Source: Tumebacillus algifaecis
GTDB taxonomy: Bacteria > Bacillota > Bacilli > Tumebacillales > Tumebacillaceae
DNA length: 64,000 nucleotides
Assembly (NCBI RefSeq): GCF_002243515.1
Contig: NZ_CP022657.1
Coordinates: 4,437,501 to 4,501,500 of the forward strand
Direction: 5' to 3'
The position numbers were made by a program, and so were the translations under genes. This document shows, one piece after another, positions 20,153-25,025 of this stretch. Under the pieces are notes generated by a model. It was not told the DNA's origin. It saw nothing but the letters and a program-made list of their open reading frames with translations, and did not search any database. Every line of letters starts with the position of its first letter. Position 1 is the stretch's first letter.

Positions 20153-20182
20153 AAAGCCGGGAGCTCATGCTCCCGGCTTTTT
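20153..20182 (+). terminator. Terminator of the nucleotidase gene
   Basis: GCCGGGAGC (20156-20164) pairs with GCTCCCGGC (20169-20177), followed by six T residues. The stop codon of the convergent sortase gene overlaps the hairpin. Confidence 0.92.
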
Positions 20183-20782
20183 TGCCGTTGCATAGACAAG
20201 ATAGCGGTAGTCGGTCGCCCGCAGCGCATCGAGCGGATAGCAGCTTTCCAGCACTAAGCCCGTTTCGTTCAGCGCGAAGACCCCATCGCGCACGTGTACC
20301 ACGCGCGCGGCGGTCACTTCATAGCTGAACGTGCCTTCCGCTGTGGAGACGCGAACCGTGTCGCCGCGCTGTAAGCGATCCAGATGGCGAAACCAAGTGG
20401 CGTTATGCGCGGCGAGCAGTGCTGTACCCGCAGTGCCCAGCTTGGCACTGCCCGTCAAATGGCCGACCGCAACGCTGATCTGCTCCTCCTCCGTTCCTTC
20501 GACGATCGGCGCTGTCAATTCCAGCGCGGGGATGTGCAAGACACCTAACGGCGAAGTGGTCGAATCAGCGCCCGAGCCGACTTCTTGGCCGACCGTTGTG
20601 GAAGCTGGCGGTGTTTGAGCTACTTCTCGCGGAACGCCTGAGACGGTATCGAGCGCTTCTGCTAAAAGCTCACCCCCGACCGCATCGGAGCGCAGAAAAA
20701 AGAATGGAATCTGCGAAAGCCATACCAATCCTGCGAGCATCACGAGTAGTCCTGTGACGGTGAGCACCTTTTTGGATCGCAC
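20165..20782 (-). CDS. Class D sortase
   Basis: A membrane transpeptidase that would link sorting-signal proteins to peptidoglycan. The 205-aa product has an N-terminal signal-anchor (about 8-30), a disordered linker, then the sortase barrel (about 80-200). The catalytic triad is in place: His in LLAAHNATWF, Cys in LVLESCYPLDA, Arg in ATDYRYLVYA. The CYP context fits class D. The GTG start abuts the stop codon of the upstream gene with no gap, so it is translationally coupled to its probable substrate at 20783-21880. Confidence 0.92.
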   Translation of the reverse strand: MRSKKVLTVTGLLVMLAGLVWLSQIPFFFLRSDAVGGELLAEALDTVSGVPREVAQTPPASTTVGQEVGSGADSTTSPLGVLHIPALELTAPIVEGTEEEQISVAVGHLTGSAKLGTAGTALLAAHNATWFRHLDRLQRGDTVRVSTAEGTFSYEVTAARVVHVRDGVFALNETGLVLESCYPLDALRATDYRYLVYATAKKPGA

Positions 20783-21880
20783 TTAGTGATGTCCCCTGCG
20801 TCTGGCAAGCAGGATCAACAGACCACCAAACAGGAGCAGTCCGGCACCTTGCCAGACGGTCTCGATCACAGCAACGCCAGTACGGGGTTGAGTACCGCCT
20901 GGGATTTCACCAGCCAGAGGCGGCTTGGTCGGAGGTGCTGGTTTGGGATCTGGATCATTTGGCTTAGGCTCGGTCGGTGGCTCAGTTGGCGGGCAAGTAC
21001 CAGACTCTTCACAGGCCGGTGGGCAGGTCCCAGACTCTTCACAGGTTGGCGGACATGTTCCAGACTCTTCACAGGCCGGTGGGCAGGTTCCAGACTCTTC
21101 ACAGGCCGGCGGACATGTTCCAGACTCTTCACAGGCCGGCGGACATGTTCCAGACTCTTCACAGGCCGGTGGGCAGGTTCCAGACTCTTCACAGGCCGGT
21201 GGACATGTTCCAGACTCTTCACAGGTTGGCGGGCAGGTCCCAGACTCTTCACAGGTTGGTGGGCAGGTCCCAGACTCTTCACAGGTTGGCGGACAGGTGC
21301 CCTTCTCTTCGCACGTCGGCGGCGGCACCGAAACCTCGTGGGCGATCACATGCACATCCAGTTGCCCCTCTTGCCCCTGATAGTCGTTGCCCGCTTCGAG
21401 CGGCATGGCATACGTATAGCTGATGATCGCTTGCTCGTTACGACCCAATTCAAAGCTTGGCGAGTTCTGATTGGATGAGAACACCGGAACCTCGATCTTC
21501 GTGCCCACAGGCAGTTGAAAACGGTTGTAAATCTGAATCGCATAGGAGATTTGTAGCGGATGATCAGAATTCGGAAACTGTTTGAAGATCGCTCCGTCAA
21601 GCACGTGCTTCAAGTAGACGCGCACCCTGCTGTTTCCCTTGTTCTTGACAGTCAGCGACCCGGTTTCCTGATCGCCTGGCGCAATGTTGCCGATATGTTG
21701 TGCACCTGCGAAAATTGGGTCCGGTGACGCCGTGATGTTGATCGTCCCCATCCCCTGCATCGATGCCTCTTCCTGTAGAGACAAACTTGCTAGGGCAAAC
21801 GTCGTGCCTCCTGCCACCAGCATGATGACCAACAGGACGATCGTAAGCAGACGCAACTTGCGTAAGTATCCGCTCCCCAA
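20783..21880 (-). CDS. TasA-like surface protein with Cys-rich repeats and LPXTG-type anchor
   Basis: A 365-aa exported protein, probably the substrate of the adjacent sortase. In order it has a signal peptide (hydrophobic LLTIVLLVIMLVAGG, ending near FALA) and a TasA/camelysin-like domain. That domain shows NIAPGDQETGSLTVKNKG and YAMPLEAGNDYQGQEGQ, both closely paralleled in the TasA at 22118. Eleven copies of a 10-residue unit PPxCEESGTC follow, then a Pro-rich stretch. The C-terminal sorting signal is QPRTG, a hydrophobic span and ARRRGHH. QPRTG replaces the usual LPxTG. The frame is open to 21919, but TTG at 21880 is preferred because GGAGGAGG lies 11 nt upstream. Confidence 0.85.
   Translation of the reverse strand: MGSGYLRKLRLLTIVLLVIMLVAGGTTFALASLSLQEEASMQGMGTINITASPDPIFAGAQHIGNIAPGDQETGSLTVKNKGNSRVRVYLKHVLDGAIFKQFPNSDHPLQISYAIQIYNRFQLPVGTKIEVPVFSSNQNSPSFELGRNEQAIISYTYAMPLEAGNDYQGQEGQLDVHVIAHEVSVPPPTCEEKGTCPPTCEESGTCPPTCEESGTCPPTCEESGTCPPACEESGTCPPACEESGTCPPACEESGTCPPACEESGTCPPACEESGTCPPTCEESGTCPPACEESGTCPPTEPPTEPKPNDPDPKPAPPTKPPLAGEIPGGTQPRTGVAVIETVWQGAGLLLFGGLLILLARRRGHH
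20990..21315 (-). repeat. 30-bp coding tandem repeat (11 units)
   Basis: Eleven head-to-tail 30-bp units encode PPxCEExGTC with x mostly T or A. The copies differ at a few positions, mainly the Thr/Ala codon and third bases; the first unit has EEK in place of EES. The array supplies 22 cysteines. Array length could vary between strains by recombination. Confidence 0.95.
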
Positions 21881-21928
21881 CGTCTCCTTCACCTCCTCCA
21901 GATGAGTTCCGCTCCACACACGACTTGT

Positions 21929-22117: not shown

Positions 22118-22633
22118 TTAGTTCCAAGCGATCGGGCCGTTATTTTGGTGGTTCGTGTTATTACGTGCTTGCACCGCTTGCACAACCACGTTGAACGAAC
22201 CCGTAGTGCCCTGGTAGGAGTTATCTGCTGCCAACGGGAAGTTATAGGTCACATCAAACGTTGTCGTGCCGCCTGCTGGCACTTTCACAACCCCATTATC
22301 AAAGCCCAGTTGGAGTGGCGTTGTGCCGCCGAACAGATTGCCCGCACGAGATGCGTTGGAGGCCGTTTGGTTGATTTTTACCCATGCATCGAGTGAGCCG
22401 TTGTTCTTAACTTTCATTTTCACCTTGCCATTGTCGCCAGGTGCCAAGTTGTTGAAGTAGAGCGCTTGCGATGCGATCGGGCCGCCGGACAGATCTTCGA
22501 GATTCAAAGTGCCGGCTGTGAAGGTATTGCCCTTGTTGCTCACCTCTGCTGTGAAGAGCGCGAAGGAACCTGCGCCGATCAGTGTTGCACCCAATGCTGT
22601 TGTCACCATGGCCAATGCAATTTTCTTTTTCAT
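22118..22633 (-). CDS. tasA: TasA/camelysin family biofilm matrix protein
   Basis: A secreted fibre-forming matrix protein, 171 aa, shorter than Bacillus TasA. The signal peptide (about 1-27) ends in the SFALFTAEVSN context that SipW-type peptidases recognise. The domain shows TFTAGTLNLEDL, NNLAPGDNGKVKMKVKNNG and YNFPLAADNSYQGTTGSF, hallmarks of the family. It has no cysteines in the mature part. AAAGGAGG precedes the ATG. It lies directly after sipW, as in the Bacillus tapA-sipW-tasA operon. Confidence 0.92.
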   Translation of the reverse strand: MKKKIALAMVTTALGATLIGAGSFALFTAEVSNKGNTFTAGTLNLEDLSGGPIASQALYFNNLAPGDNGKVKMKVKNNGSLDAWVKINQTASNASRAGNLFGGTTPLQLGFDNGVVKVPAGGTTTFDVTYNFPLAADNSYQGTTGSFNVVVQAVQARNNTNHQNNGPIAWN

Positions 22634-22736
22634 AAAACTACGTCCTCCTTTTCATATGAAGAGCTATATGGATTGTTTCTCGCTCTGTGACGACAGCGTG
22701 TTTCATCTTCCCCGCCATGCAGAACGAGAAAACATT

Positions 22737-23336
22737 TCAGACAGGCTGATTGTGATCTTCTGACGTTGCCGCCGTCGTGGCGGGCGCCTGTTCCTCTTGC
22801 TTTGGCTTCATCACTTCTCGAAACAGGGAGATGATCGGGCCTGCGATCAGCACGATCCCCGGAATGATCAGCATGATCGCAAGACCTGGTCCGGTCGTCA
22901 CCCAGTTAAAGAAGAGCCCGAGCTTGGGAATGTGAAAGTTCGCATACGAACCGATGACTTGCGCCTGACGCACCGGCTCAGTATCGCTCACTTCATTGGC
23001 ATCCCCTTGGGTCAGATAGACGGGAAAGCTGTCTTCCACCTTTACTTCGATGATGCGGTGGGTGATGATGATCGAGGCGTCTTCAGCCGATCGGAAGGTG
23101 ATGACGTCGCCCACTTGATAGGCGGTGGTGAGATCGCCCGGTTTGACAGCGATCAGATCACCCGTTTCAAACACCGGACTCATCGAGCCGGAGAGTACCT
23201 TCATCAGCAGGTGTCCGAACACTTTCGGTTCACCGCCGGTGATCTTCGAACTGACCACGAAATACAGATTGAAACAGAGCAAGACGATCAGGAAGCCGGT
23301 GATGATTTTCCCTGTGATGTTCATTGCTTTTTTCAT
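22737..23336 (-). CDS. sipW: Signal peptidase I, SipW (ER) type
   Basis: The peptidase dedicated to maturing TasA-type precursors. The 199-aa product has an N-terminal span (about 9-27), the Ser motif VLSGSMSPVFETGD (about 48-61) and IITHRI, where ER-type enzymes have His in place of the bacterial general-base Lys. GDANEVSD follows. A C-terminal span lies at about 145-170, followed by a charged, Gln/Glu-rich tail. AAGGAGG precedes the ATG. It follows the first operon gene by 21 bp. Confidence 0.93.
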   Translation of the reverse strand: MKKAMNITGKIITGFLIVLLCFNLYFVVSSKITGGEPKVFGHLLMKVLSGSMSPVFETGDLIAVKPGDLTTAYQVGDVITFRSAEDASIIITHRIIEVKVEDSFPVYLTQGDANEVSDTEPVRQAQVIGSYANFHIPKLGLFFNWVTTGPGLAIMLIIPGIVLIAGPIISLFREVMKPKQEEQAPATTAATSEDHNQPV

Positions 23337-23357: not shown

Positions 23358-23867
23358 TTAAGCCAGCGGAGGAGGCGTTTGAGAGTGGTTCTGCTGCAAA
23401 TCGGCAGGTTGCGGCGACGAGCGGTAGTGATCAACAGATGATTCCGGTTCGGGTGCCGTCACCTCTTGATTCTCTTCCGGTGCCGCCTCCTTGTCTTCTT
23501 CCGGCAGGGCAGGTTGCTCTTCCGTTGTTGCCGGGGCGTCGTCTTGATTTTTGTGCGGCTTACAATGTCCATAGCCGTTACCTGGCGGATGCGGTTTGTG
23601 CTTGTCGCCGTTGCGATGGGTGTCTTCGTCACAAAAGTTAGCTGCTGCTTTGACCGTCGAAGCGTTGACTACACTCGCTGTAAACAGCGCATTGGTCGAC
23701 CCTGTGTTCTCAACCCCCAGCAAGATGGTCGTCGAGAAAGCTGTCATCGCGGTGACCATCATCATCCCCCACCGTTTGCGTCGCTCTTTGCGCAGGCGTC
23801 GGTTGTGTTCCAGATGCGATTCCTGTCCCTGCGGTTCGTGGGAATCGAACGACTCGATGCCGTCCAC
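23358..23867 (-). CDS. TapA-position exported protein
   Basis: The first gene of the matrix operon, 169 aa, in the place where Bacillus has tapA. I see no clear sequence match to TapA. A basic N-terminus (RRLRKERRKRWG) precedes a hydrophobic span (about 34-52). Then comes TNALFTASVVN, the SipW-type cleavage context also present in TasA. The mature part starts with a His/Pro/Lys-rich segment with two cysteines, then a long disordered Glu/Pro/Gln tail. The GTG at 23867 lies too close to GGAAGGAGG, so the true start is uncertain. Function as a fibre nucleator or adaptor is inferred from position only. Confidence 0.7.
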   Translation of the reverse strand: MDGIESFDSHEPQGQESHLEHNRRLRKERRKRWGMMMVTAMTAFSTTILLGVENTGSTNALFTASVVNASTVKAAANFCDEDTHRNGDKHKPHPPGNGYGHCKPHKNQDDAPATTEEQPALPEEDKEAAPEENQEVTAPEPESSVDHYRSSPQPADLQQNHSQTPPPLA

Positions 23868-24177: not shown

Positions 24178-24555
24178 TTGCTCGGGACGAAGATACGTCA
24201 ACTTCGTAAAGAAAGAGGGCTGAGTCTTGGTGAGTTGGCTTTGCGAGCCGACTGTGCGAAGAGTTACCTGAGTGACATCGAGCGCGGTGTCCGTGACAAT
24301 CCATCGATCCAATTCATTGAGAAGATCGCGTTGGTGTTGGAAGTGCCGACCGAGTTCTTTTTCGATAAGAGTTACACCACAGCCGAAATGCTGGCGAACG
24401 AGTTAGCGCCTGAGATGATCGAATTGGTTAAACAGCTCGACCTCGGCTGGTTGCAGTTGACCCAGCAGGCGGCATCCAGCGGCTTGACCAAAGAGCAGTT
24501 TCAAGAGTTTATCGAATATGCGCGCTGGAAATCATCCCAATCTTCCGGCGACTAG
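24178..24555 (+). CDS. sinR: SinR-like master biofilm repressor
   Basis: A 125-aa homologue of Bacillus SinR. The N-terminal XRE domain (GLSLGELALRADCAKSYLSD, then NPSIQFIEKIALVLEVP) closely follows SinR. The C-terminal LDLGWLQLTQQAASSGLTK, then EQFQEFIEYARWK, matches the SinR/SinI multimerisation hairpin. The TTG start has GGAGGG 7 nt upstream. It is divergent from the tasA operon, which SinR represses in Bacillus, and candidate boxes lie between them. No sinI is visible nearby. Confidence 0.92.
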   Translation: MLGTKIRQLRKERGLSLGELALRADCAKSYLSDIERGVRDNPSIQFIEKIALVLEVPTEFFFDKSYTTAEMLANELAPEMIELVKQLDLGWLQLTQQAASSGLTKEQFQEFIEYARWKSSQSSGD

Positions 24556-24556
24556 C

Positions 24557-24609
24557 AAAAAACCGTTTCATTTTGCCCTGGTGCCGTGGCATAAATGGAG
24601 CGGTTTTTT
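24557..24609 (+). terminator. Terminator of sinR
   Basis: AACCG-TTT-CATTT-TGCC pairs imperfectly with GGCA-TAAATGG-AGCGGTT, followed by six T residues. Confidence 0.75.
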
Positions 24610-24659
24610 GCATGGTAGGTCTAGAAACAAGACGATCTCCATAATCTTTGTAACGGAGT

Positions 24660-24772
24660 ACCGCCGAGTGTCAAAGGTAAACCATGTGAAAGCATGGGAC
24701 ACAAAGCCTCGGGCCTAAGGTGAGGAGGATGTGGGGGTCATCTTCGCGATGGCAGCCGGGCTGCCGACAGAG
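24660..24772 (+). ncRNA. Cyclic-di-GMP-I (GEMM-I) riboswitch
   Basis: All conserved parts of the class I aptamer are present. AAAGGTAAACC (24673-24683) opens it. A P2 stem CCATG/CATGG is capped by a GAAA tetraloop (24688-24691). GGGACACAAAGCC (24696-24708) and the tetraloop receptor GGCCTAAGG (24712-24720) follow, then P3 with ATGGCAGCCGGGCTGCCG (24749-24766). It senses the biofilm second messenger c-di-GMP. It lies 58 nt before a 58-aa gene. No intrinsic terminator is evident between aptamer and gene, so control may be translational, though the pairing was not resolved. Confidence 0.93.
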
Positions 24773-24829
24773 CTTTTGCATAGCAGAGGATTTTCACGTT
24801 TCTATCAGGGGTAGGGGGAACGAAACGCA

Positions 24830-25006
24830 ATGCAAATGCCCGCTTTTCTCACACGCTTCACCATGAAGCAACAACTGATCGAACTGGAAGCGACGGACAG
24901 TGTTACCCATCCGCTTCCGATGCCTCAGACGATGCGGCTCGGTCCGAAACCAATTCCGAATCCGCGCCGCACCGTTCCGAAGCAAATGAAAGAGCCGATC
25001 TCCTAA
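24830..25006 (+). CDS. 58-aa orphan protein under c-di-GMP riboswitch
   Basis: A 58-aa, Pro- and Met-rich protein of no recognised family. The first 20 residues could form an amphipathic helix (FLTRFTMKQQLIELEA). The rest is a basic, Pro-rich tail (LGPKPIPNPRR) and probably disordered. There is no signal peptide, cysteine or membrane span. The ATG at 24830 lies 11 nt after AGGGGG; a second ATG at 24836 is possible. The stop codon lies in the loop of the terminator. Being the only ORF behind the riboswitch, in a biofilm locus, supports a real gene. Confidence 0.6.
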   Translation: MQMPAFLTRFTMKQQLIELEATDSVTHPLPMPQTMRLGPKPIPNPRRTVPKQMKEPIS

Positions 25007-25025
25007 TCAGGAGATCGGCTCTTTT
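24991..25025. terminator. Terminator of the riboswitch transcript; also faces pyrG
   Basis: A 13-bp perfect stem AGAGCCGATCTCC (24991-25003) / GGAGATCGGCTCT (25010-25022) is followed by T residues on the plus strand. On the minus strand CTCTTTCATTT follows, so it may also end pyrG transcripts. Confidence 0.88.

Follow-up and report, generated by a model that had tools for sequence, protein, structure and literature searches.

The Locus between the SinR-Like Gene and pyrG

The window, that is, the whole stretch of 64 kb of Tumebacillus algifaecis DNA analysed here, includes a gene for a protein of 58 amino acids (aa) at 24830-25006 on the + strand, which starts with ATG and has pyrG as its convergent neighbour. 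On its other side lies a gene for a SinR-like regulator (24178-24555, +) with an HTH_3 domain (E 4.4e-15) and a SinI domain (E 4.2e-8), whose terminator, as read from the sequence, is situated at about 24557-24609. Next come a TapA-like gene (23358-23867; a weak match, E 0.001) and, by domain matches, a SipW-like gene (22737-23336) and a TasA/camelysin-like gene (22118-22633), in agreement with a sequence-only reading of this DNA which had placed the small gene beside sinR and the matrix operon.

Some minor features of this neighbourhood may be mentioned. The gap between sipW and tasA (22634-22736, - strand) seems, by eye, to contain a hairpin conserved in relatives (L027, about 800-900; L060, 1480-1580), the arms of which are ACAGA/TCTGT in the relatives and AGAGC/GCTCT in the window; it may be a processing element. 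In addition, a camelysin-like protein encoded on the - strand (20783-21919) contains the repeat CPPxCEESGT about twelve times, and a gene for a class D-like sortase (20165-20782, -) adjoins it.

The only Rfam match in the whole window is a c-di-GMP-I (GEMM-I) aptamer, RF01051, at 24666-24768 (+), and it occupies the same place in two related species. The match scores 75.8 bits, far above the gathering score of 35 (E 4.4e-13), and covers the full model from 1 to 87, so that, judged by its sequence, the aptamer is a plain RF01051 member; five c-di-GMP-I aptamers are found in this genome in all. What sets it apart is that its expression platform is not of a recognised terminator type and that its sole apparent target is a 58-aa protein matching no known family. 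A weak candidate promoter, consisting of TAGGTC (-35-like), an 18-nt spacer and CATAAT (-10), lies at 24616-24645 (+); it was not called by a simple promoter scan, and CATAATCT with the GTAACGG directly after it is invariant in an alignment of three species.

Between the aptamer and the gene, a leader segment at 24772-24781 (+; GCTTTTGCAT) is able to pair with the start-codon region at 24830-24839 (ATGCAAATGC), and folding predicts an equivalent helix in both relatives despite their differing leader sequence. Predicted folds also contain a hairpin, CGTTTC/GAAACG (24797-24827, +), which holds the G-rich Shine-Dalgarno (SD) sequence in its loop and one arm of which is kept as GAAACG or GGAACG in the same-genus alignment. 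The aptamer would control the 58-aa mRNA in cis, most likely at the level of translation, because no terminator was found in the interval between aptamer and open reading frame (ORF) and because base pairing between leader and start codon is possible. When the aptamer was enforced in folding of the leader, no consistent change in the exposure of the SD or the AUG was seen.

The unit is closed by an intrinsic terminator at 24989-25024 (+), a 16-bp hairpin followed by TTTTGTTT, which covers codons 54-58 and the stop codon and has pyrG facing its far side. The gene has the same position, frame and start, and the same overlap with the terminator, in all three same-genus genomes, namely those of the window, of T. 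avium (NZ_CP021434, G001) and of G002. Consequently, the arrangement proposed from the sequence alone, a GEMM-I aptamer followed by a single small ORF and a terminator, was confirmed, as was the expectation that the ORF would be conserved behind GEMM-I in relatives; loss of the frame where the aptamer is kept was looked for, and the frame proved to be conserved.

The 58-aa Gene and Its Product

The 58-aa protein is 60% and 52% identical to its two same-genus homologues, and the differences are unevenly distributed. Codons 1-20 are under strong purifying selection (dN 0.03-0.08, dS 0.78-1.53, dN/dS about 0.05), codons 21-49 are near neutral (dN 0.28-0.91, dS 0.62-0.90), and the last seven codons are conserved again, probably because they make up the terminator arm. 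The codon-by-codon pattern therefore points to the N-terminal segment of about 20 residues, MQMPAFLxRFTMKQQLxExE, as the selected product, with a variable tail behind it. The protein had been called Pro-rich; Pro does make up about 17% of it, but it is the Pro-rich tail that lacks conservation.

It had also been suggested that the RNA itself could be the product of this locus. An untranslated ORF in a regulatory transcript would fit the very short length of the ORF and the strong conservation, at the RNA level, of the leader and the first codons. However, changes in the first 16 codons comprise six synonymous ones and only one which alters an amino acid, an indel is of three bases, and start and stop are kept in four genomes. 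By these patterns of substitution the ORF is a real protein-coding gene under selection, so an RNA product is highly unlikely at the 58-aa locus.

Searches of Pfam and NCBIfam gave no family match for the protein. AlphaFold2, run on two sequences, predicted a helix at residues 5-20 and nothing else structured, with low confidence and a disordered tail (mean pLDDT 63.8, pTM 0.20), which is too weak for a fold search. A membrane-peptide reading of the N-terminus was considered and is not put forward, because the helix is not amphipathic by the Eisenberg hydrophobic moment.

Antagonism of SinR, in the manner of SinI, is a further proposal from the sequence-only reading. SinI is 57 aa long, similar to the protein described here, and both are small proteins encoded next to a SinR-like gene, in this case one which itself carries a SinI domain. 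The SinI domain (PF08671), however, is in that SinR-like neighbour and not in the 58-aa protein, whose only predicted structure is one N-terminal helix of low confidence, which by its hydrophobic moment is not amphipathic, before a disordered tail; moreover, the ORF persists in a sister-genus genome in which it has no aptamer. The idea did not hold up and is now given very little credence.

That GEMM-I targets should mostly be large proteins is likewise a weak premise here, since aptamers in this family of genomes precede ORFs of 33 to 106 aa; it is further weakened by four C. difficile GEMM-I elements which precede conserved hypothetical genes (PMC3649979). Small proteins thus appear to be common GEMM-I targets in the Tumebacillus family. 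At six loci (L003, L008, L010, L041, L043 and L045) the aptamer is followed within about 15 nt by a small-protein ORF of roughly 75-106 aa with a hydrophobic N-terminus, and at L033 (match 1501-1593, - strand) a hydrophobic ORF of about 33 codons, MDMSFFRGVMYGFIPAAVIWFMIAYTLVLVVSN, comes directly after a c-di-GMP-I aptamer.

The Gene without the Aptamer in a Sister Genus

In one genome of a sister genus (G005) an ORF of 55 aa, MQMPVFLAQFSMREQ..., lies between sinR and pyrG, and a terminator again covers its end, so that this overlap is kept in all four homologues. It was missed by pairwise search and detected by profile search (E 1.4e-19), and no aptamer was found at the locus. The riboswitch is therefore tied to the 58-aa gene in one genus only. 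In G003, G004 and G006 the genes next to pyrG are different, and the 58-aa gene was not found. Searching the order with a profile of the four homologues did not turn up other convincing members of the family; its weak matches align mostly with the unconserved tail region and lie within long open frames. The distribution suggests that the gene is an old resident of the gap between sinR and pyrG, and that the riboswitch is an addition to a gene already in place or, where it is absent, may have disappeared from it.

A Proposed C-Rich RNA behind a Second c-di-GMP-I Aptamer

Outside the 64-kb window, another c-di-GMP-I aptamer is followed by a segment for a putative C-rich RNA. In seven Tumebacillaceae genomes the aptamer is succeeded by terminator 1, then by an invariant block (TGACTCATC...CCCTTTTTGTAATCCCCCTACCCCCCACA) and finally by terminator 2; terminator 1 is predicted in all seven, the block is invariant across two genera, and the C-rich segment TCCCCCTACCCC sits just before terminator 2. 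The latter covaries, with eight of 15 pairs changed on both sides and a covariation score reached by none of 500 shuffles. In the Tumebacillus family a chemotaxis-receptor gene lies further along, past the producer RNA. Two observations at this locus are added here. The terminator-2 loop contains an invariant CCCCAAC in the seven genomes (L002, 1684-1790, and orthologues), possibly a second C-rich seed, and the C-rich RNA is followed, at about 1888-1960 of L002 and in the orthologues, by a conserved element in which a strong SD occurs together with ATGAAAAAGT and which would encode 14 aa in one genus and only MKK before a stop in most genomes of the other.

In four same-order genomes of another family, a hairpin comes after the aptamer, then the AATCCCCCTACCCC stretch again and, last, a terminator; the unit contains no ORF, and no terminator was found between its aptamer and the C-rich part. 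An aptamer with a non-coding segment and its own terminator is thus found in 11 genomes. In the four same-order genomes the comparison indicates that the C-rich RNA itself would be the product, because aptamer, C-rich stretch and terminator are constant while the downstream genes differ; at L062, the one sequence followed further downstream, what reads like a PAP2-type phosphatase gene comes after the unit. Among 398 genomes of the class the C-rich stretch was found nowhere else apart from one match with two mismatches (G288), and no Rfam relative of the C-rich part was found.

Complementarity between the C-Rich Segment and the 58-aa Leader

The G-rich SD of the 58-aa gene contains a 12-mer, GGGGTAGGGGGA (24808-24819, +), which is the exact complement of the seed of the C-rich RNA. 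The leader from the aptamer onwards is diverged among the three same-genus species save for CAGGGGTAGGGGGAACG, which is identical in all of them, and the 12-mer is kept at 12 of 12 nt; the complementarity is accordingly conserved in three species. The 12-mer occurs 12 times in seven family genomes, always at one of three orthologous sites: (a) the SD of the 58-aa gene, in each of the three same-genus genomes; (b) the region behind the other c-di-GMP-I aptamer, where it lies on the opposite strand and reads TCCCCCTACCCC, in all seven; and (c) the sipW-tasA gap, in two same-genus genomes out of three, the window's own genome being the one without it. The reversed pattern, used as a control, gave four stray matches in the seven genomes, about 0.6 per genome. 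The 11-mer lacking the final A has stray coding and intergenic matches, so only the 12-mer is specific.

Pairing energies agree with this pattern. When the C-rich 19-mer was compared with both strands of the window, its best partner was the 58-aa SD (-28.3 kcal/mol; the next, -22.9), and in G001 and G002, over 18 kb surrounding the locus, the sipW-tasA gap and the 58-aa SD ranked above all other sites. Dinucleotide shuffles reached the observed energy in 0 of 3000 cases for the leader and 21 of 3000 for the seed. The mean duplex energy of real SD regions is -11.8, against -28.3 for the 58-aa SD.

The 58-aa gene could nevertheless be governed by an ordinary cis riboswitch only, in which case a strong G-rich SD would match a C-rich loop by chance. 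Any G-rich SD will pair with a C-rich RNA, stray 12-mers do arise at the rate of the reversed control, aptamer and gene make sense without the match, and the sister-genus gene exists without the match. Coincidence accounts poorly, however, for matches confined to three orthologous sites, for an SD intact in three species within a diverged leader, for a second site about 2 kb off in the matrix operon of two species, or for a duplex energy so far below the mean of real SD regions, and it is regarded as rather unlikely.

Alternatively, the 12-mer could be a DNA site, used in either orientation by a transcription regulator of c-di-GMP and biofilm genes rather than for RNA pairing. Both orientations of it are indeed seen, biofilm genes and a chemotaxis gene lie nearby, and there is a precedent in Zur, which in B. 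thuringiensis binds the dual-terminator DNA belonging to a c-di-GMP-I riboswitch (PMC11218506). On the other hand, the sites lie deep in transcribed leaders, in an operon-internal gap and directly before a terminator, and none is at a promoter; moreover, the C-rich strand always precedes a terminator and the G-rich sites are always on the sense strand of the neighbouring mRNAs. A DNA site is therefore improbable.

Pairing of the C-rich RNA with the 58-aa mRNA in vivo, suggested by sequence and energy, is judged to have slightly better than an even chance. The 58-aa mRNA cannot have been the original target, because the pairing of the G005 gene with the C-rich segment is unremarkable (-18.1) and because the C-rich RNA occurs in the remaining sister-genus genomes without a detected 58-aa gene. 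The genome-wide search for targets used exact and one-mismatch patterns, with energy ranking within the window and the 18 kb of G001 and G002, and one-mismatch sites genome-wide were at or below the control level. A one-mismatch site in the window's own genome, GGGGTAGGGGAA (L122, around 1500; G000:C1:80152-80162), lies 26 bases ahead of the start of a gene for a large secreted protein, possibly a further target; its duplex with the C-rich RNA has -23.8 kcal/mol.

Possible Regulatory Circuit

The SD, with its 12-nt exact match to the C-rich RNA, is predicted to sit in a hairpin loop. The C-rich RNA would pair with the 58-aa SD and block translation and, in two species, would also pair with the sipW-tasA matrix mRNA with the same effect. 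Its own synthesis could be switched in the producer RNA: the invariant UUGAUACGG overlaps the 3' strand of the aptamer helix P1 and is able to pair with GUAUCC in the arm of terminator 1, and the resulting antiterminator, GAUAC/GUAUC, which is predicted in the seven Tumebacillaceae genomes and not in the four same-order ones, would compete with terminator 1. Because of this overlap and competition, c-di-GMP should favour P1, with termination before the C-rich part, and thereby stop synthesis of the C-rich RNA. High c-di-GMP would then leave less C-rich RNA, so that the 58-aa protein and the other targets would be derepressed, which fits matrix production at high c-di-GMP. The switching model is not applicable unchanged in the four same-order genomes, because the terminator before the C-rich part is absent there.

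The comparisons suggest that two c-di-GMP switches are wired together through the C-rich RNA. The wider scheme for the locus, a monocistronic small-protein gene under double c-di-GMP-linked control, is marginally favoured. The complete circuit, in which a c-di-GMP-gated small RNA (sRNA) from a riboswitch leader would silence the 58-aa mRNA and, in some species, sipW-tasA as one RNA circuit, is put forward more tentatively, as somewhat short of an even chance. The sequence-only reading was right about a true aptamer with one small cis target, its suggestion of SinR antagonism found no support, and it missed the complementarity between the SD and the C-rich RNA. If the proposed circuit is true, second-messenger riboswitches would communicate through antisense RNA, and the motile state, represented by the chemotaxis-receptor gene, would be linked in trans to the control of the biofilm matrix. 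In addition, the 58-aa gene offers a testable small protein whose functional part would be a peptide of about 20 residues.

Comparison with Known Systems

In a literature search of partial coverage, no paper dealing with Tumebacillus together with riboswitches was found, and no c-di-GMP riboswitch with an antisense output was found in the part covered, outside which many subscription papers lie. The nearest systems are EutX and Rli55, in which B12 riboswitches control a trans-acting sRNA (PMC7602753). Like these, the proposed C-rich RNA lies downstream of an aptamer, has its own terminator and is predicted to be shortened when the ligand is bound; unlike them, its ligand would be c-di-GMP, and whereas EutX and Rli55 sequester the protein EutV, the C-rich RNA is predicted to act by antisense pairing to an SD. 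RsaA and RoxS are C-rich, SD-targeting sRNAs of Firmicutes (PMC3961350, PMC5419742) which share with it a single-stranded C-rich stretch beside the terminator, complementary to the SD of a target, but the RNA described here comes with a riboswitch aptamer and is without an Rfam relative. Bc1 of the B. cereus group is a c-di-GMP-I riboswitch with two terminators (PMC11218506), and in both cases two closely spaced terminators come after the aptamer; the producer RNA differs, however, in having an invariant C-rich block between the terminators, and in the same-order genomes the first terminator is absent while the C-rich block remains.
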